Of a DNA stretch of 38,949 nt, positions 2,369 to 38,852 are shown in pieces. This DNA is from a virus. The stretch's first letter is position 1. Each line of letters opens with the position of its first letter. The stretch covers positions 1 through 38,949 of the IMG/VR virus record IMGVR_UViG_3300017963_000460; one strand, given 5' to 3'. Position numbers and translations under genes: made by a program. The notes under the pieces are model-generated. The model saw only the letters and a program-made list of their open reading frames with translations, had not been told where the DNA came from and searched no databases.

Positions 2369-2431
2369 TTATTTCTTCTTTTTCTTAAAAGACAAGCCGC
2401 CTAAAAGCGCTTCCCAAAATGCTGCGTTCAT
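2369..2431 (-). CDS. 20-residue microprotein between the SbcCD fusion and the holin-like gene
   Basis: A 20-codon reading frame encodes MNAAFWEALLGGLSFKKKKK: a short hydrophobic/amphipathic helix with a lysine-only tail. Its ATG overlaps the TGA stop of the SbcCD gene (ATGA, 2431-2428). A good ribosome binding site (GAGGA at 2443-2439) lies exactly 7 nt upstream, inside the end of the SbcCD gene. That is better support than several of the larger genes have. The composition resembles a membrane-active peptide or a peptide that sits on the inner face of the membrane. With the holin-like gene 55 nt downstream, a role in lysis timing is conceivable. Its function is unknown. Confidence 0.5.
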   Translation of the reverse strand: MNAAFWEALLGGLSFKKKKK

Positions 2432-5400
2432 TGGTTAATCCTCGCGTATCCCTTGTCCTTCTCAATGGTTATCTCCATATCAACGATATCTTTTAGAGAA
2501 TCCAAGTGAGAAATAAGAATGACTGTCTTGAAATACGTTTTGACTAGATCAAGCATCCGAATAAAGCCTTCCATATTCTCTGCGTCCAAAGCTGTTCCTG
2601 GCTCGTCTAGAATAAAGATGTTACCCTTCGGCAACGACGACACAGATAGAAGCGCCAAACGTATACCCATTGATGCTAGAGTCTTCTCTGCACCTGAGCC
2701 CATCTCAATAGGACGTGCTTCGTAGTTAGGATGCTTGATAAGCACGTCCAACTTGTTACCAGACTCTTGGAAGAAAACTTCAAAGTCAACAATGTTTGAG
2801 ATTGTCTTTGCAATCTCTTCGTTAATAACAGGCAGTCGTCTCTTAATAATATCGTAAGCAATACCGTTGGAATGCATGCAACGCATAAACAAATCATAAG
2901 CAGCGAATTCAGCACGAATATCAAGTAGCTCCTGCTTTTTATCTTTAAGTGTCTCTACCTTCTGCTCTAGTGAGCCGATTGTTCTGTTGTGAGTTGATAG
3001 ACCTTCCTCAAAAGCTTCGATGTCTCTCTTATTAGCCTCAATCATCTCCGCAACCTCATTCCGCGAAGAAATAAGATTTTCGATATTCTGGATAGCTTCT
3101 TTGTTGTCCTCGTACAATGCAATCTTTTCATTTGTCTCGGACAAATCAGAGGTCATCGTTTTAATCTTTGCGAACTGCTTCTCAATTGAAACCTTGTTGT
3201 CTCGCTTCTTAATCTCAATAGCATTCTTCGCAATGATTGTTTCATTGTATCTATCAATCAACTCAACCATCTCGGCAGAGTTAACTGACACTATCTTCTC
3301 TTTGTAGCCCTTAGCTTCCTCAATCTTCTTAACGATCTTCTTCTCAAGCAGAGGCAACTCCAATGAAGCGCTGTGAGCATCTGAAATAAACTTACAAGAC
3401 GAAACATAAGCACTGCCGCAAGGAACCTCATCAAGAAGTGTGAGTTTCTTAGACATAGTCTTATAATCGTTGTCCATAATGCGCGCACGGTTTACGGTGC
3501 TGTCGTAACGTTGCTTGAAGTCGTCGTACTGCTTCTTCTCTTCTAGCAACTCCTCAATGTTGATCGTTGTTAGGAAATCATCATAAGTCTTAAGCTTGTC
3601 GTCAAACTCTGAGATCTCATTCTTAAGCTCGGAAATATTTTCCTTTGTGTCCTCGATATTGTTGGTTAGCTGCGTTCTTCTCTCAACCAGCTCCTTGATG
3701 TTTAGACGCTCAGTCGGGATTGAATCAATCTGTTCAGTCAAATCTCTATATGTTTGTTCGTTTTGAGCCAACTGTAGACGTATTGCATCGCATCTTTCGG
3801 TGTCAGCTTGTAGTTCCTTCTGTGCCTCTTCGCAATGAACCTCTGCAATTGCTATGTCTTTATCATAGTCTACGTCACCAATACGTCGTAGGACAGCTTT
3901 TAAGTCAGAAGAGTCTTCTTTTGCCAGCTTAAACTTCTTCTCAAAGATCTCTAAATCCAAGAACTTAGCAAGGATCTCCTTTCGTTTTGTAGACCCTTCC
4001 TTGATAAAGCTTAAGGAATCAAGCTGGCTAGCCATTGACGTCAGCAAAAAGTCTTCAATCGTGCCAAACTGCTTGCGAATGTTGGCATCAGTTTCGTTAC
4101 GGGTTGTGCCGTTAAGACTCAAATCACTGTCCTGTGTAAAGTCCAAGAATGTTCTGGCCTCATTAGTTTCCACACCCTTGAGGCGCTTTACATACTTCTC
4201 TGACTTCCTCTCAATGGTATAAGTCTTCTCGCCAATCTGAAGCTCTATCGTACCACTACAGTTCTTTTTGTTTTGATTGATGATGTTATAGTTCTTGCGC
4301 TCGTTCTTTGACGTTGTATTGAACATAGTGTAAAGCATTCCATCAATAACAGATGACTTGCCTGAATAGTTCTTTCCAAAGATCCCGACAATACCGTTGA
4401 GATTTGTAAAGTCAAGAGTGTTGTCTTCACCGTAGTTGAACAGATTGTCCCACTCAAAGCGGTTGATATTCCAGTTTACGTTTCTCGCAATGTCTTCGTT
4501 CTCTTCAATATGAGAGTTATACTTGCGGTTTAGTTCGTAAACTTTCTGTAAGACAGCCTCAGAAGGCTCGTAATCTTGTAGATACTCACGAATATGCTCT
4601 TCCTGAACTGCTACATCTCGTAAGTTCTCAATCTTGAAGTTCTTTCCAAGACTAATATCACCTCTTTCGCCTGCTGCTCTGTTTAGGAACGAGATTGATT
4701 CCGGCTTGAAACGAGACTTTGCGACCTCAACAGCCTTGCGCATTACGTCCAGAGGCAGATTGTTGTTACTTACAAGACGCAGACGCGCACCAGAAGGAAT
4801 ATTTGTGCCCTTCGGCATCCGACCCTTTGGTGTTAGTTCAATAGTAACGAAAGGCTTGGGGTTTAAAAGAACGTGATGTTTGACAGTAAAGTCATCTTTA
4901 CTACGAATTTCCCAAGTTAAGAATCCTTTATCATTAGTTTCGCCGTGGTTCTGCTGGACGGTTGAGCCTGGATAAATCGCGAGGCATTGTGCTTTTCTAA
5001 TCTTGTTTTCTTCTACTATCTCCCAACCGTCTTCAAGGTATTTATCAAGATCTTTTTCATCAACGATTTCTTCTTTCCATTTTGACTGAACTACCTGATT
5101 TGTTTTGTGGATGTCTCCAAGCATCGCATAATCGTGACCAGCAAACACCCCAATGTCGTGATCGCCGTGATCCATTACCCAGCCAACGTCAGTTGAGACA
5201 CCACCAATAGCACCGTGATACAAAGCAATATTGATGCGTGTTGGATCGCTTGGAGCAACCCAGTTCTCCTCATCAAATACAGACAGCACATTGAGCGCGA
5301 GATCGGGCTCTAAGATCGTTTCACCAGCATCTTTGAGTAGGTGAAGGTTAGGGAGGTTCAAAGCGCTTACAATGGGCGACAGAGCGTCCTGACGGCTGCT

Positions 5401-5664
5401 GTTCTTTAGGTTTCCGTCGTGGTTTCCAAGCAGAACATAAGTTGGTGCGATTGCTTCAAGATTTCTAAAAAAATCTGAGCACAACTCAACGAACTCCGGA
5501 GAGATTTGTGTTTTTGTGTGGGCAATATCACCAGTATGAACAATGTAGTCCACATTTTCCTCACGAAGTTTTTGATAAAGTTGCTCAAAAACAACACGAT
5601 ATTCGTAGTGGTATTTTAGATTTTTGATGTGGGTATCACTAATATGTCCAAATTTGTATCCCAA
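2428..5664 (-). CDS. Fused Mre11-Rad50 / SbcD-SbcC-type recombination nuclease (T4 gp47-gp46 fusion)
   Basis: One 1078-aa polypeptide carries both subunits of the DNA end-processing complex used in phage recombination and replication restart. Residues 1-190 are a calcineurin-type metallophosphoesterase: D10-T-H12, GD46, GNH82D, H150, GH177D and a final H186. Residues 200-390 are a linker/capping region. The Rad50-like ATPase begins at about 400, with Walker A GKNYSGKS (430-437). Long coiled-coil arms follow (about 570-945), with a C749-x7-C757 turn at the apex. The C-terminal lobe holds the signature GSGAEK (989-994), Walker B FILDEP (D1020, E1021) and the switch H1053. The start is TTG: an in-frame TAA lies two codons upstream, no ATG precedes the catalytic DTH, and GGGAG is 6 nt upstream. 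T4 encodes the two subunits as separate genes 47 and 46. Confidence 0.93.
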   Translation of the reverse strand: MGYKFGHISDTHIKNLKYHYEYRVVFEQLYQKLREENVDYIVHTGDIAHTKTQISPEFVELCSDFFRNLEAIAPTYVLLGNHDGNLKNSSRQDALSPIVSALNLPNLHLLKDAGETILEPDLALNVLSVFDEENWVAPSDPTRINIALYHGAIGGVSTDVGWVMDHGDHDIGVFAGHDYAMLGDIHKTNQVVQSKWKEEIVDEKDLDKYLEDGWEIVEENKIRKAQCLAIYPGSTVQQNHGETNDKGFLTWEIRSKDDFTVKHHVLLNPKPFVTIELTPKGRMPKGTNIPSGARLRLVSNNNLPLDVMRKAVEVAKSRFKPESISFLNRAAGERGDISLGKNFKIENLRDVAVQEEHIREYLQDYEPSEAVLQKVYELNRKYNSHIEENEDIARNVNWNINRFEWDNLFNYGEDNTLDFTNLNGIVGIFGKNYSGKSSVIDGMLYTMFNTTSKNERKNYNIINQNKKNCSGTIELQIGEKTYTIERKSEKYVKRLKGVETNEARTFLDFTQDSDLSLNGTTRNETDANIRKQFGTIEDFLLTSMASQLDSLSFIKEGSTKRKEILAKFLDLEIFEKKFKLAKEDSSDLKAVLRRIGDVDYDKDIAIAEVHCEEAQKELQADTERCDAIRLQLAQNEQTYRDLTEQIDSIPTERLNIKELVERRTQLTNNIEDTKENISELKNEISEFDDKLKTYDDFLTTINIEELLEEKKQYDDFKQRYDSTVNRARIMDNDYKTMSKKLTLLDEVPCGSAYVSSCKFISDAHSASLELPLLEKKIVKKIEEAKGYKEKIVSVNSAEMVELIDRYNETIIAKNAIEIKKRDNKVSIEKQFAKIKTMTSDLSETNEKIALYEDNKEAIQNIENLISSRNEVAEMIEANKRDIEAFEEGLSTHNRTIGSLEQKVETLKDKKQELLDIRAEFAAYDLFMRCMHSNGIAYDIIKRRLPVINEEIAKTISNIVDFEVFFQESGNKLDVLIKHPNYEARPIEMGSGAEKTLASMGIRLALLSVSSLPKGNIFILDEPGTALDAENMEGFIRMLDLVKTYFKTVILISHLDSLKDIVDMEITIEKDKGYARINQ
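2439..2443 (-). promoter_or_regulatory. Ribosome binding site of the 20-aa microprotein
   Basis: On the minus strand GAGGA is followed by 7 nt and the ATG at 2431. It lies inside the last codons of the SbcCD fusion gene, so its presence is not required by that gene's function. It is the main support for translation of the microprotein. Confidence 0.55.
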
Positions 5665-5670
5665 GATTTA

Positions 5671-5675
5671 CTCCC
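5671..5675 (-). promoter_or_regulatory. Ribosome binding site fixing the TTG start of the SbcCD fusion
   Basis: GGGAG on the minus strand lies 6 nt before the TTG at 5664-5662. An in-frame TAA lies between the two, so no start further upstream is possible. The first catalytic motif (DTH) begins at residue 10 with no ATG before it. Together these leave TTG as the start. Confidence 0.75.
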
Positions 5676-5678
5676 AAT

Positions 5679-5716
5679 AAAAAACTCTACCGTCAGTATA
5701 TACCAACGGTAGAGTT
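5679..5716 (-). terminator. Intrinsic terminator at the end of the structural/replication block
   Basis: On the minus strand an 11-bp perfect stem (AACTCTACCGT at 5716-5706 pairing with ACGGTAGAGTT at 5693-5683) encloses a 12-nt loop. The downstream arm runs directly into six T residues ending at 5679. In RNA the loop could add two G-U and two Watson-Crick pairs, leaving an AUAU tetraloop. It lies 20 nt after the stop of the 118-aa gene and 14 nt before the SbcCD start codon. Read in the plus direction there is no T-run after the stem, so it acts only on minus-strand transcripts. Confidence 0.85.
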
Positions 5717-5722
5717 AGTCAA
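5695..5722 (-). promoter_or_regulatory. Sigma70-like promoter nested in the terminator, driving the SbcCD-lysis-terminase block
   Basis: On the minus strand TTGACT (5722-5717, 5 of 6 to the -35 consensus) and TATACT (5700-5695, 5 of 6 to the -10 consensus) are separated by 16 nt. The -35 box abuts the outer edge of the terminator stem, one stem arm forms the spacer, and the -10 box is in the hairpin loop. Initiation would fall near 5688, inside the second arm. A new transcript would therefore lack the first arm and could not form the terminator. The leader would be about 24 nt and contain the GGGAG site. It is inferred from sequence only. Confidence 0.6.
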
Positions 5723-5735
5723 GTGTTATTTTAGA

Positions 5736-6092
5736 TTATAAAGGACTTTGATCTCGTGGATCATCACCGATCTGTGGAAGCATATCTGAGTCGCCCGTTG
5801 GAGCATACATCTTATCAGAAAGAATATGGCGAAGTGTAGCAACCATCGACGCATCCAAATCTGTAGCAAGATCTTCCAACTCGGCGCGGGTCATATTACC
5901 CAGAGCTTCCCGGGCTCTGATAAGAGTAAGAAGACGTCCTTCCGGAGAGTCGAATGCTCGGTCACGGTCAACAGTCTCTTCATCCTCTGGCTGAGGAATG
6001 TCTTCAATGCCTGCGCCTAGGCGGTCAGCACCGAGCATAGCGTCTTCCTCTTCGTTGATGAACTTTTTAAAGTTTTCCATTATAAGTTTCAT
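5736..6092 (-). CDS. Small acidic protein of unknown function (118 aa)
   Basis: I do not recognise a domain. The N-terminus (MKLIMENFKKFINEEE) is a short amphipathic helix followed by a very acidic, probably disordered segment (about 15-50) with repeated Asp/Glu and Pro. A helical region follows (about 52-95), then a Pro/Asp-rich tail. Similar 'MENFKKFxNEE' starts occur on several small proteins of T4-like marine phages, as far as I recall, but no function follows from that. The ATG at 6092 has AGAAGGA upstream; an internal ATG at 6080 is an alternative. It is the last gene before the terminator and follows the primase gene by 15 nt. An assembly-scaffold or partner-binding role is possible. 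Confidence 0.65.
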   Translation of the reverse strand: MKLIMENFKKFINEEEDAMLGADRLGAGIEDIPQPEDEETVDRDRAFDSPEGRLLTLIRAREALGNMTRAELEDLATDLDASMVATLRHILSDKMYAPTGDSDMLPQIGDDPRDQSPL

Positions 6093-6107: not shown

Positions 6108-7043
6108 TTACACCGACATAGCGAGCGTCAGAAGTAAATAGTTGTCTGATGTGATAAGGGTCGCTTTGTTCAAACATTTCTGGAAGTTGTCTTTTGACAT
6201 TGACCCAACATCTTCGTTCTCTCCGATGTTTACTTTCCAAACTTCAATATCAAAATCCAACAAAGTTTTGATGATCTCCAACTCTTTCTTTCTTGCGTCA
6301 GGATCCAAAGCGATATAAACGCCTGCATCTTTCTTAACAATCTTTTGCAGAAGAGCAGAGTTTTGATTTAGTGTGGATCCAAGAAGAGGTACAGAATTAC
6401 GACCGGCAACCACAGCATCAAACACCCCCTCCACCAAAATAATGTCCGAACTCCAATCCACAAACAAATCGTTGAATATAATGTTCTTGCTTGCTGGCGG
6501 GTTCTTATACTTTGGATACGCTTTTCTATCATAGGACCGAGAAACAAAGTAGTTCAAATCGCCTTCATCATCAAACGAAGGAATGACGATACGATTTTCA
6601 TACTCTCCTTTGCTACAATAGCCCATCTTCCACCAAACAATATCTTGCTTTGTGATACCGCGCTTTCGCAGATAGTTTCGGGCAGCAAATCCGGTAGGTG
6701 GAATATCTTTATTCGCCAAAGACACAAAGCCTTCGGGCATATCAAGTATTTGTTTTTCTTCTACTTTCTCGGCAAAAAGATCTTCAAGCTTCTCATAATC
6801 AACGGTGCCTGTGATATCACGCCATTGAGACTTGTGATTGTGGGTTCCATACTTCCGTATTATCCTGTAAAGATTTTTACCTCGTGTATCGCACGTCCAA
6901 CATTTGAAATATCCCTTATCAAGGTTGATAGACATTTTCTTTTTATGATGATTACAATAAGGGCAGTGAAAAAGAAACTCATTGTTTGAGCGATAAGGTG
7001 CTCCGAGAACATTAGTTAGGATTTTGAGCTTCTTGTCTTTCAT
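6108..7043 (-). CDS. DNA primase with CHC2 zinc finger and Toprim domain (DnaG / T4 gp61 type)
   Basis: It makes RNA primers for lagging-strand synthesis. The N-terminal zinc finger has C27-P-Y-C30 and C48-W-T-C51, the CHC2-type ligand spacing of phage and bacterial primases. The Toprim core begins at about residue 145. Its metal-binding glutamate is in ILVEGVFDA (E205), and the DxD motif is ALDPDA (D247, D249). At 311 aa it is close to T4 gp61 in size and has no helicase domain, so it should pair with a separate helicase outside the window. Its start overlaps the end of the ruvC-like gene by 32 nt, with GGGG 9 nt upstream of the ATG. Confidence 0.92.
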   Translation of the reverse strand: MKDKKLKILTNVLGAPYRSNNEFLFHCPYCNHHKKKMSINLDKGYFKCWTCDTRGKNLYRIIRKYGTHNHKSQWRDITGTVDYEKLEDLFAEKVEEKQILDMPEGFVSLANKDIPPTGFAARNYLRKRGITKQDIVWWKMGYCSKGEYENRIVIPSFDDEGDLNYFVSRSYDRKAYPKYKNPPASKNIIFNDLFVDWSSDIILVEGVFDAVVAGRNSVPLLGSTLNQNSALLQKIVKKDAGVYIALDPDARKKELEIIKTLLDFDIEVWKVNIGENEDVGSMSKDNFQKCLNKATLITSDNYLLLTLAMSV

Positions 7044-7548
7044 TTATATACCCCGCTTTTGCTATCACGTAACTGTCGGCGCGGTCAGCATAACCGGGCT
7101 TTGGATTACCGTGACGGGTATACTCTACAGTAAAGTCTTCCACGTTGTCAATAACAAACTTCATAACGACTTCTTTCGCTTTCTGGCCCTTGGGAACTTT
7201 GATGCCGACCAACTTTCTAGCAGATATGGCTGCGAGATATTGAGGTTGTAAGCCAAAGATCTTATAACATTGCCAAGAAACTATACCATTGATCTTTGAT
7301 AAAAGCGAAAGCGTTTGTGCTGATGAGAACCCTGAACGAAATGATTGAAGCGATTGCTCTACGTAAACTTTGCTTATATGAAAACGATGTGAGATATAAT
7401 CAAGTTTCTTCTCAATCATTTCGGCTTTCTTAAAGAAGTTCTTTTCTTTGCGCATATCAACATGATCGCAGTAAAGAATGTCGCCAGTTTCGGGGTCCAA
7501 TATTGTTAAGCCAGTAATACTGGTTGAGATGTCAAGTCCTAAAATCAT
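7012..7548 (-). CDS. RuvC-like Holliday junction resolvase
   Basis: This is an RNase H-fold endonuclease that resolves branched DNA before packaging. The four acidic residues of the RuvC active site are all visible: D6 in LGLDIS, E64 in VYVEQS, and D155 and D158 in YADRADSYVIA. The region around residues 72-88 (SGFSSAQTLSLLSKING) matches the RuvC pattern after the second acidic residue. Its length of 178 aa is close to bacterial RuvC (about 173). T4 uses the unrelated endonuclease VII (gp49), so this phage has replaced that function. The ribosome binding site is weak (CGGAT close to the ATG). The gene overlaps primase by 32 nt and follows the structural genes by 12 nt. Confidence 0.9.
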   Translation of the reverse strand: MILGLDISTSITGLTILDPETGDILYCDHVDMRKEKNFFKKAEMIEKKLDYISHRFHISKVYVEQSLQSFRSGFSSAQTLSLLSKINGIVSWQCYKIFGLQPQYLAAISARKLVGIKVPKGQKAKEVVMKFVIDNVEDFTVEYTRHGNPKPGYADRADSYVIAKAGYINERQEAQNPN

Positions 7549-16209: not shown

Positions 16210-17129
16210 TAGCAAGGCTCCTCATTTTCTGTAGAGTATAGATCTCTATTAAGTTTGATTCTGCTGGCATTCGTAGAGACAGCATTATCGTTAATATCTA
16301 GTTCTCTGATAACCTCTTGTGGAATTTCGTTATCCACCAAAACATTCATCCAATATTCAATGTTACCCTCTGTGGGTGCAATGAATTCGGTATCGCTCTG
16401 CGGGGTAGAGCTTAATTGAACATACTGCCCATCGGAACCAGATAGAAAAACTTCAATTTCAAAGTTTTCTTTTTCAAAAGGCGTATTACTCTCTAAAAGC
16501 TCTATCATTAAATAATTTTCTTTCAAAGCTAAAAAGAAGTTACCCGGAGGGTCACCGAGATATCCAGTAATAGAATCAGATGTTATCTCTCCCTGCTTGA
16601 AAAATGTCTCGTAATCAATTGTTATATTGATTTGTGGGATGGGCTGTATAAAATCATCTTCGTTTAGAAATCTCTGCCCCAAAGATAAGGTAGGGTTAGA
16701 AAGTATTTCCATCTGCCAAGCAGGGGCATTTTGTGTGCTATAAGACGAACGACCGAGCGGGTATGCGTCTAACTTACCTTTATCTCCATAAGTTTGTTCT
16801 TGAAAGATCTCAACGTTATTGGCTGGGTCTGATGTGTGCCCGCCAATCACGGCATTGAAAGAAGAAGAAACATTATCAACAAATCTATTGACTCTTGTTT
16901 CGGCGCCCTCTCTGGTCGGGATAATCTTTATCTTTGGAGTGTCGCTTTGAATTCTGGATTCAGCGAGGTTCTGATCCTCGGTGTATCCAGAGCCACTTAC
17001 ATCATACAGAATATCATCATCAAAGAAGGCATAAAAGGCTGGGTTAAATTGACCGGCAGCTAACTTATCTCTTCCATAGTTTGTAAGCACAACTTCCAAG
17101 ACTTCTTCTTTTTTGTTAAAGAATTCCAT
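16209..17129 (-). CDS. Structural protein with N-terminal 'LTxxGRxxLA' module (306 aa)
   Basis: The N-terminus (VLEVVLTNYGRDKLAAGQF, then AFFDDDILYD) is a paralogue of the module at the start of the 316-aa protein downstream. The remainder is acidic and beta-type, with several possible strand pairs (PQINITIDYETFFKQGEI; FEIEVFLSGSDGQYVQLS) and an acidic tail ending in ENEEPC. It is joined to both neighbours by single-nucleotide stop/start overlaps (TAATG at 17129 and at 16209). It sits directly after the giant gp7-like gene, where T4 has gp8, but I see no sequence reason to call it gp8. A baseplate-wedge role is likely from position. Confidence 0.7.
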   Translation of the reverse strand: MEFFNKKEEVLEVVLTNYGRDKLAAGQFNPAFYAFFDDDILYDVSGSGYTEDQNLAESRIQSDTPKIKIIPTREGAETRVNRFVDNVSSSFNAVIGGHTSDPANNVEIFQEQTYGDKGKLDAYPLGRSSYSTQNAPAWQMEILSNPTLSLGQRFLNEDDFIQPIPQINITIDYETFFKQGEITSDSITGYLGDPPGNFFLALKENYLMIELLESNTPFEKENFEIEVFLSGSDGQYVQLSSTPQSDTEFIAPTEGNIEYWMNVLVDNEIPQEVIRELDINDNAVSTNASRIKLNRDLYSTENEEPC

Positions 17130-20100
17130 TATTCGAGATCCCCGATATCAGGCGTTATTGTATTGTCCGGCAATACATCGCTAGATGCGTACTGCACTGT
17201 TTCGTCAATCTTAACTAGTTCTACGAGCGAGAAGTAATCGTATGGCCAGTTGTAAGAGTATGCCCCTACAGTGTCTGGGAAAGCACTTGTATCCTCTGTG
17301 ACTAGAGACCTTCTGTACTTCTCGAAAGATTTCTTGGCGCGTTTCTTGACCTTGAATACCATCCACTGAATATCTTCTGAGTTGTTGATTAATAGGTCAA
17401 GAACTTGCTTGTCGTCTACAATGACTTCTTTTTGCTCAAACTTTTCATTGATATCGGGTGGTAAGTTCTGCCACATATCAGCAATGTCCTGTTGTGTAAC
17501 CTTTGCAGAGAACTCGAATGTATACATCAGAATTGGATCTACCGTGTCGTTTATTACGAAGTCAAACTTTGGCGGGTACACATACTTCTCAAGACTTCTC
17601 TTAATGTTGTCGTATTCCGAATTGTTTTTGTTAATACCAAAGAACTTTCTTCTGTTATTGACAGTCTTGAATGGAACTGCAACAACTGCCTCTTCAAGAA
17701 GATTCTGCTTCTTCACGGAACCAACTCTGAATATTGCATTTGTAGGCATCCCAACTACGTCTGCTAGTGATTCTCCGCTAGCATCTTCAATAGTTACAAA
17801 GAATCCAGCATCTGATGCTGTTGGAACAGAGCCATATTGATGCCATAGTCCTCTCAAAGAAATCTTATCGGCACTACTTGTTCCAGCGCTCACTGTCGTT
17901 GCTGGTGGAGTCGTAAAGTCAACGCCAGCAAGATTTAGAACAGGAGTTTCAAACTTAGATTGAATTAGCCATCTCTTCTTTTGTGTAACAGTATTATCTG
18001 GAACATCTGTGTAGAAATCCAAAAGATTAAAGCAACTATCCATTTGCATTCTTGGGTCGTGATCTGGCACTGACGCTGTAGAAACGACATAGTCGACTGT
18101 TTGATCTCTAGAGAAACTTAATGTTGTGTTTGCAAATATTTGATCTAACGAAGGCTGACCATTTTCAGATGCTGTATATGTAAACGTGACCTCGCCCCTT
18201 CCGGCATACGCAGGGCTTGTTAGATGTGTGAAACTACCCGAGCGAGCGTTGCCGGTGCCTCGTGGACCTGATGCTAGAGGCCAACCAAATGCAGAAACTC
18301 TTGTATACATATCAAACTTAGCTCTATCGACTTCTGGATCAGCAGCAGCAGACCCGGTGGTAAGAGGGCGATAAAACTTCATTCTCATTTGATACACGTT
18401 GCCACTTACGACGGAAGCAAACTCGTCTTCTCTTCTAGATTTTATTGAAGTTAATCTATCATTGAAGAACTCAACTGTTTCGCACAAGAAGTTATCGATG
18501 GCAAGCTCATAAAGCTTTGTACCTCTCAAATCCGGCGTTAAAGGTCCATCGTTTGGATTGATGCTTGGATGTCCTGCTTGCGATGGAAGCTGGTAGAATT
18601 TATCATACAAGAGACCGCCAGTGATATACTCTGTGTTGAAGTATGCAGATGGCTTATACAGTGCCTCGAAAGGAAGTTTTTGTGGCGTGTAGCCCAATGA
18701 ATCAACCGAGGAAGTTGTTACGTTTAAGAGTTTTTTGAATACTATGTTTCCTTCAGGCAATTCTGTAACACTGCCGGTCTCATATACCGGGCTTAGAGTC
18801 GGATTTGAAGAAGTATTCGTCAAAACCCAGTTGCCAACAGCGATTCCAGATTTGATCGTGTTATACATAATTCCCGGGGCAAAAAGTGGTTGGCTTATTA
18901 TTCTAGAAGCCAATGTGTAATTGTTTGTTTCTGCATTCAACTTATCCGTAAAGTACGATTGTGAAAGTAACGTTGCCAACTCTAGAGTACGCTCAGCAGG
19001 ATAGAATCCCTTGTATGGTAGGAACTTAAGAAGTGCGTTACAACGAAGTGATACTTTATCTCTTTGGATTTTAAGATCTCCCGAACGCTGGCCATTAAGG
19101 TCCTCGTCAACAACGGAGAAGTATTTCAAGAAATCAGAGGTTGAGTAAGTTTTGTAAAAATCTGTCTGAGAGCTGTCACTGATTGCTGCACCAGTTAGAT
19201 TAAAGACATTATCAATATCAGCTAAGAAATCGCCTCCATTATCTTCTACATATGTTTCTATAAGTTCGCTTATTCTAAACTCCGGAACGATAGAGTGGTC
19301 TTTACCTACCAGAGCAATCTTTTCAGCATATGTAGAATAACTTTCATATGGTTTCTTGCCTGATTGTATGCCAGCTTCCCATAGAGCATCGCCAGCATAA
19401 ACCGGTATTGAGGAAGTTGTGCCAGCAAAGACACGTAGTGCATAAGCTGCACCTACGTTGATTCTCGATGCTCCAGCAACACTACCTGAGTAAGAAGTGT
19501 AGAAGTTCATTAGCTCACCAGCACCATCATCGATTCTGACTGATGAAGTGGAGGCAAAGTTTAGGTGCCCATCAAGGGGCCATGTAGAAGCAGTGCCGAA
19601 TCTTAGTCCCTGAGAGTTGGGGTTGCCTCCGTATGTTACAGAGCGTTTTGTTCTATCATCGTCCCAGATATTTGTGATCGAGTAGTTAGTTCTTCTACGA
19701 ACTGTATTAGAAAACGTATTAATATCTGATGGATATAAGTTTTCTGTGTATAGGATCGCCACACTCATGCTACTGCTTAATGTGTAGTCAAGTATGGAGC
19801 GATAAGATTTAAGCCTATCTACGTTGGATTTCAATCCATAGAAGTTGTTTAATTCGTTGTGCGAGAAGTAATCAATTTCGTTTCTGAATGGGACAGAAAC
19901 CTCAATGTTATTTTTGGTCTCCGATTCTTCTGTGTTATCCTCAAAGATAAATGTAATTGGAGAAGAATTCTTTGAATAAGGAGCCTCAAAGAAATCAACA
20001 AAAGAATTTGGTCGTTTAGGAATTACCGCTCCATTGTCGTTTATCAATCTCTTTGGCGGAATAGCGTAACCAATCTTATTCGTTTCTCTTAACTTTCTCG

Positions 20101-23100
20101 CGATCTTGGTCTCGCCAGTGCGGATTTGTTTCCAAGTTGGGTATCCGTATGGACCATTGCGGTTTGTATTGAGAACATTTAGATAATCTTCATCATTATC
20201 AAATGCTGGTGATTCCCAGTAGTCTGCATTGATGTAAGAGGAAATAGCGTTTGCTGATAGCGGGAATCCTACAATGTGAGAAGACGCTGTAACAGGATCT
20301 ATCAACGCAGTTGTTAAGCCTACGAATGTTGTATCTTCATAAGTGCCTGAAACAATAAGTTGACTTAAAACACTTGCGCTAAAGCAAGATGGTCTATCGT
20401 TGCCGTAAATAATCTGACCCTCAGCCAACGATGCAGTCACCCAAGAGTATTGCTGTGTGGAGCGCGGGATAGCGTGCTGAATGAAGAGATTATCGTATAC
20501 GGACGCCGTGATGTATGTTGTTCCAGACAACTCTATTCTGCGGCGCCGGTTTCTGTTTGTCTTGTGCCAAGATGGTGTTGTAACGTATGTTAGCTCTGGA
20601 ACAGAACCATACGCTGCATCAGAACCAAACGGTCCAGCGTGGAGTGAGGTTCTTTGGTTAAGACCACGATTCTTATTAATCTGGTCTACTACTGCAATTG
20701 TATTAGCCTCTACAGGATCCAAAGAGGCAGATTCCTGCTGTCCTCTGGTGATTACACCAAGATTGCGATATGGTGAAGCATTGTAAACTGAAAGTTCTTC
20801 GTGCGCTGGATCTCTATATCCGCGTGACAAAACCTCATATGAACCAGGGGACGAGAACAAATTGACAAATACAGTTTCGTTAGAGTTCGCGCCGGAGCGG
20901 TCTGGCAGTTCATAATCTAAATCACCCCCAACGTTTTCCGTAGAAGAGGTAAGAGGTAGTCTGCCTCTTGTAGCAAGTGTTTCCGGGTTTGGAGCGAAAC
21001 TGAATGTTTGCTCACGGAAAAATAGATCATTTGCAGTTCTGCCAGTAGTCTGAACAACTTGATAGTTCTTTTGATAGTTGCCGATTTGGTTATGAACAAC
21101 TGTCCCTGAAAGGCGCGTTCCAACCGAAGCTGTGGTCATCAAAATGTTCTTGATGTTCACAGGACGCTTTGCTGTTTCGTCGCGGAAGCGCTGTGCCGTA
21201 GGAAGCGCTGGGAGCCATCCTAAAGGCGCGGAGCCAGCCGGTGAGTCAAGGAACGGATAATTTGGCGGAACCACTCCCAGGGCACCAGAGGCGCCAGCAG
21301 GGATATTAGAGCTACTTGGGTTAAGACCAAGAGCTAGGCGGAAACCTTCTGCTCTTGACTCTCTTGTATCATTACCGTCATTGATTTCTGTATGTCGGTA
21401 GTATCTGCCGCCAACAAACTTCTCTGTGAACGGACCCTGTGCAGGAATTACTGTATCAAAAACTAAATCGTGGTGAAGGTTGGTAACCATCGTTCCGGAT
21501 TTGTAGTTCTGTACAACCTTGCTGTTATACCCTGTTGTTACAGATGAGCTATAAAGGCTAAATGGACCATAGCTTTTACCATAGTAGTTTAGATCTTCTG
21601 ACTCAGACTTGTTTATAGAGGGGTTGATCCCGTAAGAAAGTTTCGTTTTTCCTCTAGGGTTTCTAATATCTGTGGTGTTTAAGAGTTCTTCGACATCAAT
21701 ATCGAATGACAACATAATGTTTTTAGGAATATTTGTTGCCGCGATTGTAGGACCGTAAGGCTGCGTTGCTTGGAAAACAAAATTAGGATCATAATTTGAA
21801 TTCTTTGTTACGCCGTCGTAGGGGAAAGAATAATTTGTCTTAAGTTTGGCAGTAGATTTAGTATATCTGTTATACGTTGACTTTACTACTTCAAAAATAC
21901 CCTCTCTATCACCAGTCTTTTCTCTTCTGTATTTTTGCCATGGTCTGTTTTCAGTATCAGAGCCATCCGTAGGAGGAGCCTCATAAGGGCCCAATTCTAT
22001 TTCTGAACTAGCGTTAGTGTCACCACCATAGTTGGATCCCCCGGGCACTTCAGGACCGCCAGGAATTGTCTCTTCAGAAGGCGGAATGGGGGGTATCACA
22101 GTTCCCTCTATATCAGTCGCCCCGACGCGCTCCAAGAATGGGAAGATATTTCTATATTTTGGTCTCTCTAGGACGTGATTCTCAATAACTGTTTTTACGT
22201 TGTCGGAGAAGTCAGCAGAAGCTGGTACCAATTGCCCCAACATAAGTGATAAGGAAGAATCAAACCACTTGTAGAACTCGTAGAACTTATCGAAATCTAG
22301 TTCGTCATTGCCGACCTTCTCAAAGAATTTCTGGCGCATGAACTTCATTTGTTTGTATTCAGGTCGCCAGCGTTCTACAGGATCACCTATAAGGTTGTGT
22401 AGATCCTTTAAGGTAGCAAAATAATTGATCATCTCTTCTGAGATGGTCTGATACATACTCTTCTCGAACGCAAAGAAGTAATTTATTGGGCGTGTCTCGG
22501 TCGTAAATACATCTTGATCTTCCGTGGACAAAACCCTAACCATATCTTCTGCTTGGATATTTTCGGGAAGATTCAACTTTGAAGAAACAACAAAATCTTT
22601 ATCAATGGCATTTGTAGAAGATGCTTGGAAGAAGTCTCCTCTAGCAGTGTACTGCTTGTTTAGGATGTTTCCTAGATCTCCAAATCTTGTTAATGCAGCA
22701 GAACCAGAGCTTATATCATCAACAACAAACTGTCCGCTAGCGTTGGAGCCTGTATTGTTCAAAAACTCCCAGTTAAACACTAGGGTGTCAAGTTTTGTTA
22801 TATCTCCGTAAGACGCAGTTGTATCAAATGGGTAAGCATAAAGATGCGGCTGTGCAGCGCCATGATTTTCAGTATCAAGTAAGTGTCCTGTTAAGGCTCC
22901 ATCTTCAATGTAATCTAGCCAGTAACGACAAGCATTTACCTTAACGTCTGATGTCTGAAGCAAGGTGCCCGTAAAGTTAGTTCTGTGCGCGCCAACAAAT
23001 ACTCTCTTGCTGCCAGTCACAAAGCCAGCGGGAGGGTTCGTTATGGTGCCAGATACTGTGAACTCCTGCAGAACCTCCCCAGCTTCTACTTGGACACCGT

Positions 23101-25495
23101 GAAGCTCAACGATGTAGTCAGAGTCTGTGCCTGTTACGAGTCCCTTTAATGGAAATTGTTCTGGCTTAATTCGTACCGCCAAATTCCATCTGGTGTTATC
23201 GTATACTTCCTCATACAAGGATGAAGAAATTTCTGGCATATAGCCGCCAGCAGTGCCGGTCAAAACAAACTTAACATTTGCTGATCTTAATTCATCTCTG
23301 ACGGCAAAAACTTGGAAGTTTACCGCATCCGAGGAAGCCCAAGTTGTATCGGTTCCCGAATCTACTGTGCCGTGGACACCGAATAAAGATGCGCTAATTG
23401 TATTTGTATCAACATAAACAACAGAGGTTTCATCTAACTTTTTGGGGAATAGAATCTCAGCTTCTAGCGTTGTAGCATAGCCATCTGTTAGACCAGAACT
23501 TGATGTGATAAAACCAACAGAATTAGCGTTTGATGCGTCAGTGTAGTTGTAAACTACAGCACTCTGCCCTGTAGCTGTATTAAAGTTGGCAAACTTATCA
23601 CCAACAATAATATTTCTTCTATTGTTCCTCATCTCATATTCAACGTTATTTGCATAAATGTTGAATTTGACTAATTCATCGTCAATACCAAAACAGCGGA
23701 TAAGGTTTCTAAATGCTTTTTCTGTTCCCTTTGACTTATAAATGTAGTTAAGGTTATTGTAGATGTTCTGGTAAATAATATTTTTAATATCGTGAAGGGA
23801 CTTTTCATAAACCCTATCTTCACTTCTATCAGCTAGCTTCTCTAAAACATCAGCATCTAGGAATATCTCTGGTGCCACAAACCCATAAGAAGAAAGAAGT
23901 TTCTCTGCAAATGGAAGCGGCTTATCGCTACCACTAGGGTATTGGATATCCTTTAGGTGGTTTAGGCTGTCGATTTGTAGATGCAGAGTATCAAAGTAGC
24001 TTGAAATAATCTGTGTTAGATACTTAACATTACTTGTGCCCTCTGTGTCTTCCTCCGTGATCCAAGAAGGTATAGAGTTGTAGATAGAAGCGTTGTTGTT
24101 AACATCGTGCGCAGAACCAGAAGTTTCCAGATCCGACGATAACGACACAACGTCCGGATGGAAAGAATAAATAATTGGATCTCGGAATTCGCTTATGGCT
24201 GCATTTGATAAGACAATAGCTGATCCTGTGTTTCTTGAGTTGGATGTGTATCCAGTCCACGAACCGTTAGAGAAGCGACCAGAGTAATCTAAAACAGTGC
24301 TATCTGTTGATGTTCTGCCTGTGATGCCTTCGTTAAACTTGAAGTAAACACCCAGATCTACGTTTGCAGATTCTTCTGTTGTTGTAAACGGGGTTGGGTC
24401 TGTATTTACACCACCGCCTACTTGCGTAAACCAAAAGCGTCCGATTTCTTTAGAAGATCTTTGTGTCTTCCAGTATCTTAATTCGTCAAGAGAACCAGAG
24501 AGCTTACCTGCACCAGCAGAGGCAGAAGAGCCAGAAGGTGCAGCAATGAGAGCACCAACATAAGCTCTTAAAGCAGAGCTGTCCGTATCATTGATGCCAG
24601 TAGTCCCCAAAGTTGATTCGTTATTTAGATTTCCATCAACATAAAATCTTGTTGTGACGCCCGCAGAGGCTGACCTAACCGATACTGCATAATGGTGCCA
24701 GTTACCATCAGCTACTGAAGCAGTGGTAAAAGTAGAAGCGGCGATGCTTTGCTGTGAAAAACCAGTGGTACCGGAAAGAACCGTCAGTAGGAAAGGATCA
24801 GATCCATCAGCCGCACCTGTTAGTTCCAACCTAAAGCGAAGGTAAGTAGCAGAAGAAGATAGCTCTCCATTCCAAAGATCAAAAATAACCTCTTTTTCTG
24901 TTAAGCCCGTAATGAACGTAGACTTGTTAAGCCAGAACTCTAATGAAGCACCTTGAGATGCCAAATCAAATTCTAAATTTGAGCCTCTGTTTTTATCTGG
25001 TTCGTAGTAGTTTGAGCCTGTAAACTTTGTAGATTTTGGCGAATTACCGTTTGGATTAGGATTAGGTCCACCTTTTACATAAATGTATTCTAAATCACCA
25101 GAAAGTCCGTAGCCGTCTGAGCTAGTTGTTTGAGTCCCCCACCCATCAGCAGAGAAAATCGCATAACCGTTTGTTCTTGGGTAAAGATTATCAAAGATAT
25201 GTAAATCAATGTAAGTTGATTCATTACGCCATTCTAACTTTTCCCTTAACGATCCATCATAAGGATATTCGTTGTAAATTCTTTTAATTGATTGATCATA
25301 GTATTCTACAGCCGAACCATAACGAGCAAAATTAGCCGGGTCAGAAAAGTCTACTCTTGGAATAAACCTTTCTTCTTCTATAATATCTTGTTCGTGGTAT
25401 GCGACAGACTCTACTTGAGAGCCTATTTCATCTGCTGTCTTACCGGAGAGCGCCTTGATGTTCTCCGTAATTTCAAAATACTTTTTAAGACTCAT
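17129..25495 (-). CDS. Giant baseplate wedge protein, gp7 / P2 gpI-like, with a LamG domain (2788 aa)
   Basis: It is nearly three times the size of T4 gp7 (about 1030 aa). Residues 170-355 form a LamG / concanavalin A-like jelly roll (GNWHHYAVSV at about 265, RFYVDGNL at 283, GSLDELRYW at 334), a fold that often binds glycans. At about 575-600 the sequence YIYKSKGTEKAFRNLIRCFG resembles the 'KGT..al..ll..fG' motif of P2 gpI-type tail proteins, which match the conserved core of gp7. A Pro/Gly/Glu-rich linker (about 1130-1190) divides the protein, and the rest is Ser/Tyr/Asn-rich and beta-type. Its position after gp25 and gp6 supports the wedge assignment. In the virion it would clamp the gp6 dimer and extend outward. 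The LamG module may contact host surface sugars. Confidence 0.7.
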   Translation of the reverse strand: MSLKKYFEITENIKALSGKTADEIGSQVESVAYHEQDIIEEERFIPRVDFSDPANFARYGSAVEYYDQSIKRIYNEYPYDGSLREKLEWRNESTYIDLHIFDNLYPRTNGYAIFSADGWGTQTTSSDGYGLSGDLEYIYVKGGPNPNPNGNSPKSTKFTGSNYYEPDKNRGSNLEFDLASQGASLEFWLNKSTFITGLTEKEVIFDLWNGELSSSATYLRFRLELTGAADGSDPFLLTVLSGTTGFSQQSIAASTFTTASVADGNWHHYAVSVRSASAGVTTRFYVDGNLNNESTLGTTGINDTDSSALRAYVGALIAAPSGSSASAGAGKLSGSLDELRYWKTQRSSKEIGRFWFTQVGGGVNTDPTPFTTTEESANVDLGVYFKFNEGITGRTSTDSTVLDYSGRFSNGSWTGYTSNSRNTGSAIVLSNAAISEFRDPIIYSFHPDVVSLSSDLETSGSAHDVNNNASIYNSIPSWITEEDTEGTSNVKYLTQIISSYFDTLHLQIDSLNHLKDIQYPSGSDKPLPFAEKLLSSYGFVAPEIFLDADVLEKLADRSEDRVYEKSLHDIKNIIYQNIYNNLNYIYKSKGTEKAFRNLIRCFGIDDELVKFNIYANNVEYEMRNNRRNIIVGDKFANFNTATGQSAVVYNYTDASNANSVGFITSSSGLTDGYATTLEAEILFPKKLDETSVVYVDTNTISASLFGVHGTVDSGTDTTWASSDAVNFQVFAVRDELRSANVKFVLTGTAGGYMPEISSSLYEEVYDNTRWNLAVRIKPEQFPLKGLVTGTDSDYIVELHGVQVEAGEVLQEFTVSGTITNPPAGFVTGSKRVFVGAHRTNFTGTLLQTSDVKVNACRYWLDYIEDGALTGHLLDTENHGAAQPHLYAYPFDTTASYGDITKLDTLVFNWEFLNNTGSNASGQFVVDDISSGSAALTRFGDLGNILNKQYTARGDFFQASSTNAIDKDFVVSSKLNLPENIQAEDMVRVLSTEDQDVFTTETRPINYFFAFEKSMYQTISEEMINYFATLKDLHNLIGDPVERWRPEYKQMKFMRQKFFEKVGNDELDFDKFYEFYKWFDSSLSLMLGQLVPASADFSDNVKTVIENHVLERPKYRNIFPFLERVGATDIEGTVIPPIPPSEETIPGGPEVPGGSNYGGDTNASSEIELGPYEAPPTDGSDTENRPWQKYRREKTGDREGIFEVVKSTYNRYTKSTAKLKTNYSFPYDGVTKNSNYDPNFVFQATQPYGPTIAATNIPKNIMLSFDIDVEELLNTTDIRNPRGKTKLSYGINPSINKSESEDLNYYGKSYGPFSLYSSSVTTGYNSKVVQNYKSGTMVTNLHHDLVFDTVIPAQGPFTEKFVGGRYYRHTEINDGNDTRESRAEGFRLALGLNPSSSNIPAGASGALGVVPPNYPFLDSPAGSAPLGWLPALPTAQRFRDETAKRPVNIKNILMTTASVGTRLSGTVVHNQIGNYQKNYQVVQTTGRTANDLFFREQTFSFAPNPETLATRGRLPLTSSTENVGGDLDYELPDRSGANSNETVFVNLFSSPGSYEVLSRGYRDPAHEELSVYNASPYRNLGVITRGQQESASLDPVEANTIAVVDQINKNRGLNQRTSLHAGPFGSDAAYGSVPELTYVTTPSWHKTNRNRRRRIELSGTTYITASVYDNLFIQHAIPRSTQQYSWVTASLAEGQIIYGNDRPSCFSASVLSQLIVSGTYEDTTFVGLTTALIDPVTASSHIVGFPLSANAISSYINADYWESPAFDNDEDYLNVLNTNRNGPYGYPTWKQIRTGETKIARKLRETNKIGYAIPPKRLINDNGAVIPKRPNSFVDFFEAPYSKNSSPITFIFEDNTEESETKNNIEVSVPFRNEIDYFSHNELNNFYGLKSNVDRLKSYRSILDYTLSSSMSVAILYTENLYPSDINTFSNTVRRRTNYSITNIWDDDRTKRSVTYGGNPNSQGLRFGTASTWPLDGHLNFASTSSVRIDDGAGELMNFYTSYSGSVAGASRINVGAAYALRVFAGTTSSIPVYAGDALWEAGIQSGKKPYESYSTYAEKIALVGKDHSIVPEFRISELIETYVEDNGGDFLADIDNVFNLTGAAISDSSQTDFYKTYSTSDFLKYFSVVDEDLNGQRSGDLKIQRDKVSLRCNALLKFLPYKGFYPAERTLELATLLSQSYFTDKLNAETNNYTLASRIISQPLFAPGIMYNTIKSGIAVGNWVLTNTSSNPTLSPVYETGSVTELPEGNIVFKKLLNVTTSSVDSLGYTPQKLPFEALYKPSAYFNTEYITGGLLYDKFYQLPSQAGHPSINPNDGPLTPDLRGTKLYELAIDNFLCETVEFFNDRLTSIKSRREDEFASVVSGNVYQMRMKFYRPLTTGSAAADPEVDRAKFDMYTRVSAFGWPLASGPRGTGNARSGSFTHLTSPAYAGRGEVTFTYTASENGQPSLDQIFANTTLSFSRDQTVDYVVSTASVPDHDPRMQMDSCFNLLDFYTDVPDNTVTQKKRWLIQSKFETPVLNLAGVDFTTPPATTVSAGTSSADKISLRGLWHQYGSVPTASDAGFFVTIEDASGESLADVVGMPTNAIFRVGSVKKQNLLEEAVVAVPFKTVNNRRKFFGINKNNSEYDNIKRSLEKYVYPPKFDFVINDTVDPILMYTFEFSAKVTQQDIADMWQNLPPDINEKFEQKEVIVDDKQVLDLLINNSEDIQWMVFKVKKRAKKSFEKYRRSLVTEDTSAFPDTVGAYSYNWPYDYFSLVELVKIDETVQYASSDVLPDNTITPDIGDLE

Positions 25496-38165: not shown

Positions 38166-38852
38166 CTAGATCTCGCTGTTTTCCCATTTTGTCTTAAACG
38201 TCCTGTACCTCTTGCGAAGCTTATTAAGATTATTAACAACCTGTTTTGTATTAAGTCCTGTAATTTCTCTCAAATATAGATAGATTGCCTTCTTATTAAA
38301 AATTTCTATTTGATCAGCGGAGTCTAAAAGAATACGAACGGCCATTAGAACCTTTTTCTCGTTCTCTTTAATCATGAAAGAATCCCAGGTGTCTATCTCA
38401 TTGTTGAGAGACATCCAAAATTCTAATTCTGATCTTTTCTCATAGTAGCTTGGCTCGTCTGATACTAAATTTTCATCAGCCTCATTGAGAACATCCTCCA
38501 TAAAAACCTCAGTCTGAAGTCTCTTTTTGGTTCTCTTAACTTTGTGGATAAACCAGTTCTTGGTTACAACTGAAAAATATGAAAAGGCTTTGGAACCTTT
38601 GTTTGGATCATATTTGTTTAAGATGGTTGTTAACCAAACCTTACAATCTGCTCTGAGATAATCAATGTTTGGTAAGGTTGTGAAACGATAAGTGTAGATT
38701 ATCTTGTCTACCATATCGTCAAATGCAGGCTGTATGTACTCTTCGTATAACTTGGATCGAAGTTCTCGATCTTCCGTCGACGCATACTTAACTATTGCGT
38801 CTTCGTGTACCTGCGTAAAATAGTGATTTTTCTTGCTCTTCTTCCTCGGCAT
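38166..38852 (-). CDS. Late-transcription sigma factor, T4 gp55-like (228 aa)
   Basis: It redirects host RNA polymerase to phage late promoters. The central segment (about 60-112) is a sigma region 2 core: DYLRADCKVWLTTILNKYDP, NKGSKAFSYFSVVTKNWFIH and KVKRTKKR. The 'KAFSYF...NW' pattern is typical of gp55-type phage sigma factors. A helical C-terminal part follows (about 160-225) with a possible helix-turn-helix (KKAIYLYLREITGLNTKQVV). At 228 aa it is longer than T4 gp55 (185). The start has a strong ribosome binding site (AGAGGAA at 38866-38860, 7 nt). In T4 gene 55 lies near 47/46; here it is separated from them by about 33 kb and heads the structural block. The final codons are duplicated downstream. 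Confidence 0.85.
   Translation of the reverse strand: MPRKKSKKNHYFTQVHEDAIVKYASTEDRELRSKLYEEYIQPAFDDMVDKIIYTYRFTTLPNIDYLRADCKVWLTTILNKYDPNKGSKAFSYFSVVTKNWFIHKVKRTKKRLQTEVFMEDVLNEADENLVSDEPSYYEKRSELEFWMSLNNEIDTWDSFMIKENEKKVLMAVRILLDSADQIEIFNKKAIYLYLREITGLNTKQVVNNLNKLRKRYRTFKTKWENSEI
38167..38190. repeat. Direct repeat copy B (24 bp), end of the sigma gene
   Basis: Identical to 38088-38111. In this copy the bases encode the last residues of the sigma factor (KWENSEI) and its TAG stop. Confidence 0.9.

Follow-up and report, generated by a model that had tools for sequence, protein, structure and literature searches.

A 44-base element (5722-5679) on the - strand of the viral DNA analysed here (38,949 nt in full, the window) consists of an intrinsic-terminator hairpin interlocked with a sigma70-type promoter ahead of a gene for a fused SbcD-SbcC protein, and by comparative evidence it is a real, conserved dual element. 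We consider it likely that it works as a fused terminator-promoter, in which RNA arriving from upstream would be terminated while RNA begun at the element's own promoter would escape.

On the - strand the window reads TTGACT AACTCTACCGTTGGTA TATACT GACGGTAGAGTTTTTTATTGGGAGTAAATCTTGGG. The promoter scan places the -35 hexamer, TTGACT, at 5722-5717, a 16-nt spacer at 5716-5701, and the -10 hexamer, TATACT, at 5700-5695; 10 of the 12 hexamer bases match, as in a sigma70-type -35/-10 pair separated by 16-18 nt. Folding, together with covariation between the arms, puts the 5' arm of the hairpin at 5716-5702, i.e. over nearly the whole spacer and with the -35 immediately outside the stem, and the 3' arm at 5697-5683, which holds the predicted transcription start near 5688, a position that we infer as 7 nt past the -10. 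The stem comprises 11 Watson-Crick pairs (5716-5706 with 5693-5683), two inner G·U wobbles, and two further pairs, making 15 pairs across 5716-5683 around a 4-nt loop, ATAT, at 5701-5698; a run of six T at 5684-5679 forms the terminator tail, its first two T also being paired in the stem. Like ordinary intrinsic terminators, the element has a stable stem-loop with a U-rich tract directly 3' of the stem; the difference is that here the loop and both arms double as -10, spacer, and start region. A first-pass annotation had proposed that a T6-tailed hairpin and TTGACT-16-TATACT share the same 44 bp on the same strand, with one stem arm serving as the promoter spacer, and both points are borne out on the - strand; its description of the -10 box as the hairpin loop holds for the 11-bp stem, where the box lies wholly in the loop, but not for the 15-pair stem, where three of its bases are in the loop and ACT belongs to the 3' arm. 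The SD-like GGGAG (5675-5671) of the SbcD-SbcC gene lies outside the hairpin and is followed by the TTG start codon at 5664-5662, and with a leader of 24 nt from ~5688 the distances are fitting, as had also been anticipated.

The promoter match alone is unremarkable, since the first 20 kb of the window contain 43 promoter-like sites versus 45 expected. In the same 20 kb the 15-pair stem followed by TTTT is the top terminator-like match, the next-longest stem among the matches listed having 10 pairs, and the element region folds on the - strand at -22.8 kcal/mol (z = -4.2), with none of 200 shuffles equally stable. What lifts the element above chance is, on the sequence evidence, its comparison with relatives. 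The read-through RNA is predicted to take up the -22.8 kcal/mol fold, whereas AGAGUU is all that remains of the 3' arm in RNA from 5688, whose predicted fold is weak (-6.4 kcal/mol) and has no terminator stem; the SD is free in both.

The source phage is a distant T4-like virus, uncultured and marine, for which no close cultured relative was found in the collection searched, and the main ORFs of this region lie on the - strand. The gene served by the promoter (2428-5664) has a TTG start and carries SbcD and SbcC, the counterparts of T4 gp47 and gp46, in one 1078-aa ORF, a fusion common to the relatives. Upstream on the same strand are a 118-aa ORF with no family match (5736-6092, stop at 5736), a primase-like gene (6108-7043), and a RuvC-like gene (7012-7548), and genes for a baseplate wedge protein, an endolysin, and a gp55-like late sigma factor are found farther upstream of the element. 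The earlier suggestion that the element provides insulation from a late structural block is not borne out as worded, the adjacent upstream genes not being structural; any late-versus-early purpose is speculation. The T4 gp55-like sigma factor gene (38166-38852, - strand) has its nearest annotated-record matches in Flavobacterium phages and a Microcystis phage, at 25-34% identity. The T4 late (gp55) promoter consensus is TATAAATA, without a -35, whereas the element has TATACT together with a conserved TTGAC -35. An N4-type hairpin promoter was considered, in view of the very large ORFs of the window, and rejected: the 2788-aa ORF (17129-25495, - strand), probably a giant virion or adhesion protein, has a LamG-like domain (Laminin_G_3, residues 177-351) as its sole Pfam match, a 1481-aa ORF gave no match in the domain/family search, and the promoter has a sigma70 -35.

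Relatives of SbcCD were collected by protein similarity, independently of the element, and comparison of their upstream regions reveals three main kinds. Kind (a) has TTGAC-16-TATACT with the nested hairpin and T-run; kind (b) shares this promoter and its position ahead of sbcCD but has no hairpin and no T-run (e.g. TTGACACCACCTACCCATCCTGTATACTAGTATCATAGACTAGGGG); and kind (c), from more distant relatives, has another promoter or none that is recognisable. Kind (a) is represented by 12 distinct sequences, two of them (L234 and L237) retrieved through a DNA pattern search; none deviates in TTGAC, in TATACT, or in the four T that follow AGAG, and all hairpin-bearing relatives have a hairpin of -10 to -20 kcal/mol with a T-rich tail. 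Stem pairing is kept in 98.3% of cells versus 92.0% in shuffles, and changes on both sides of a pair are seen in 13 cells at 4 pairs versus 3.4 in shuffles (0 of 500 as high, with kinship remaining in the counts); slid-window controls gave 0-2 such cells. At one stem pair L234 has U-G, which is intermediate between the states U-A and C-G, and the occurrence of several pair types at the same stem positions argues for repeated events, though the shuffles keep relatedness. Covarying arms alongside conserved hexamers had been proposed as the comparative mark of a dual element, and the proposal of such an element, whose own transcripts would escape, passes this comparison, with the T-run always accompanying the stem. 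Because promoter and terminator are both kept through compensating mutations, a two-in-one switch is very likely real.

Twelve relatives keep the promoter while hairpin and T-run are absent. TATACT is invariant across all aligned hairpin-bearing and promoter-only relatives, and TTGAC is kept in the latter as well. The longest T run within 30 nt past the -10 separates the two groups completely: every one of the 12 kind (a) sequences has 4-8 T, and every one of the 12 kind (b) sequences has 1-2. In a maximum-likelihood SbcCD tree the two kinds interleave, with at least three changes forced by well-supported branches (the long branch of L008, a copy with a broken frame, is an artefact); this interleaving, together with the linkage of stem and T-run, indicates that hairpin and T-run are gained and lost as a unit, possibly through recombination, while the promoter stays. 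As far as these alignments show, the promoter is the more widely kept part, and the putative terminator is an optional addition, superimposed on it through the sequence of the spacer and start region. About half of the close relatives lack a terminator at this site, and within 500 bp upstream in the promoter-only relatives no other terminator was found bar one weak candidate (L013, 493 bp upstream). Since these relatives have no nearby replacement, insulation appears to be dispensable or optional; essential insulation, which predicts a separate upstream terminator in them, was rejected on the same finding.

The promoter is not confined to this locus. TTGAC-N16-19-TATACT occurs at 27 sites in four related genomes versus 0-5 for wrong-spacing, reversed, and scrambled patterns, and a start codon with an SD follows within 5-90 nt at 13 of the 27 and at none of those control sites; judged by these counts, TTGAC-TATACT is a real genome-wide class of predicted promoters. 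A scan of 2.2 Mb of related phage DNA for helices of at least 10 Watson-Crick pairs that surround the -10 and cross the predicted start found them at 9 of 69 TTGAC-TATACT sites, and none of these sites has a helix of 8 or 9 pairs; no such helix was seen at any of the 71 TTGAC-TATAAT sites or of the ~1150 TATACT sites lacking a -35, the latter result leaving out five sites re-matched one base off. The nine helix-bearing sites represent three designs: the sbcCD element of kind (a) (five), that of a distant sbcCD relative, G030 (one), and a second site family (three).

This second family, TTGAC...GAAGCTCCTRTG ... TATACT CATAGGAGCTTC, is a promoter-in-loop hairpin without a T tail that stands ahead of at least four different ORFs (L239-L277; G002:C1:5804 (-), G003:C1:15565 (-), G010:C1:13858 (-), and G011:C1:89967 (+)). 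Pairing holds in 97.2% of the cells at its 12 pairs; one pair is compensated and wobbles are numerous, and the covariation is not significant by itself. The family resembles a mobile, hairpin-bearing promoter cassette. DNA-level searches of annotated phage records with the sbcCD locus and with the second element gave no match, and a protein search with SbcCD returned distant relatives only, none covering 80% of the query; these searches led to no applicable published transcriptome. Three relatives of kind (c), L151, L158, and L189, also have a promoter-in-loop hairpin without a T-run upstream of sbcCD; it is formed by an independent long palindrome around the -10, GCCTCTATTGACAG...CTGTCAATAGAGGC, with a weak T tract at most. 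Given the T-less hairpins of the second family and of the distant sbcCD relatives, termination may not be the sole function of such hairpins, and there may be room for an additional role at the DNA or RNA level. Terminators without U tails are known in phage phiC31. At three other sites (G009:C1:21498 (-), G011:C1:106034 (+), and G003:C1:191972 (-)) the promoter -10 abuts the 5' arm of a T-tailed terminator, an arrangement that puts the predicted start within the arm; between these genomes the stem sequence varies and the pairing is kept. Predicted starts inside terminators number 12 in the central 40 nt versus ~1.7 from the flanking density, homologous copies included.

In the mechanism that we propose, polymerase coming from the upstream genes (the 118-aa ORF and those before it) would copy both arms, the hairpin would fold, and the U-rich tract would release the read-through transcript before sbcCD. 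Host sigma70-type polymerase would bind TTGACT/TATACT and start near 5688, inside the 3' arm; its RNA (AGAGUUUUUUAUUGGGAG...) would lack the 5' arm, could form no hairpin, and would not be terminated. We infer the start site, the termination itself, and the escape of the promoter's own RNA from sequence features.

In design the closest precedent is a group of T4 genes, namely e, soc, 49, and those of intron endonucleases (I-TevI), in which the late promoter is embedded in a hairpin that masks the ribosome site (PMC3014915, PMC2988022). There, as here, the promoter is inside hairpin-coding DNA, so that the full hairpin occurs only in RNA started upstream and RNA from the internal promoter escapes it; in T4, however, the ribosome site is hidden and the promoter is gp55-dependent, whereas here ribosome site and start codon are both outside 5716-5683, the hairpin is T-tailed, and a sigma70-type promoter with a -35 takes the place of the gp55-dependent one. 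The likeness in geometry, a promoter within a hairpin near a start codon, is the main argument for a reading in which the hairpin controls translation, read-through RNA being folded beside the sbcCD ribosome site and poorly translated while internal-promoter RNA is translated. The T4 cases are established (PMC3014915, PMC2988022), and seg43 of Aeromonas phage 25 has a hairpin, of unknown effect, just upstream of a free ribosome site; but with SD and start codon outside the stem, and with a conserved T-run that translational control does not require, we regard this reading as very improbable. Sequestration of the ribosome site as the main role was rejected on the position of the SD, and action on termination rather than translation is most likely.

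It is also conceivable, though we think it unlikely, that the palindrome is a DNA operator over the spacer, -10, and start, bound by a dimeric repressor or activator of the phage or its host, and that the RNA hairpin is incidental. Inverted repeats across the -10 and start occupy classic operator positions, and palindromes without a T-run are found again at this promoter position at a second site and in distant relatives; against this, a search of five genomes found no other place where the half-sites form an inverted pair, the sequence varies freely while the pairing is kept, G-U steps included, and the T-run, for which an operator has no need, appears and disappears with the stem. A plain terminator that carries a promoter match by chance deserves hardly any credence: promoter-like matches in the window are indeed not above chance, but the hexamers are the most conserved part of the element, they persist in relatives without the terminator, and as a promoter class TTGAC-TATACT is significantly represented in these genomes. 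The existence of promoter-only relatives largely refutes it.

Phrase searches of the open-access literature, a weak instrument with subscription papers outside its scope, found no direct precedent for terminators containing promoters, and the remaining known systems resemble a fused terminator-promoter in part. At penA/nlpD1 of Burkholderia, a mutant penA promoter lies right before a terminator-attenuator, and RNA from the upstream gene is terminated while the promoter's RNA escapes (PMC6045580); that promoter arose as a mutation just upstream of the stem, whereas in the present element the -10 sits in the loop, and conservation extends to both functions. The frd terminator/ampC attenuator of E. 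coli, so far as it is cited in PMC6045580, likewise has the terminator of an upstream operon at the point where the transcription unit of the following gene begins; there ampC appears to be transcribed from a promoter within the upstream gene, ahead of the hairpin, and the resulting RNA includes the entire attenuator, which RNA begun at the present promoter could not.

We tentatively put forward, as an idea that may well prove wrong, that promoter-in-loop hairpins are a general device in these phages, in which the fate of an RNA is set by whether it starts upstream of or within the element; T-tailed versions (at sbcCD) and T-less ones (in the second family and the distant sbcCD relatives) would have evolved on sigma70-type promoters on more than one occasion, and a trick that T4 late promoters apply to translation would have been carried over to transcription termination. 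If true, the device would decide whether a transcript is terminated or processed, or else expressed, by where that transcript began. The sbcCD element would in any event place terminator and promoter on the same bases under simultaneous selection, with relatives having switched the terminator on and off while keeping the promoter. As a putative minimal insulator of ~44 bp it bears on how transcription units are separated in tightly packed phage genomes, and it could serve as a compact part for laboratory gene circuits.

Two observations concern individual relatives. In L008 (4001-7388), a 98%-identical relative, the sbcCD frame is broken, with 98 stops when read in one frame, which we read as a frameshift, an insertion, or an assembly error. 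The sequence just before the element differs between relatives; L064 is nearly identical upstream to the window (compared with 5660-5800) yet has the terminator-promoter element of L030, which suggests a recombination or exchange boundary at the element.
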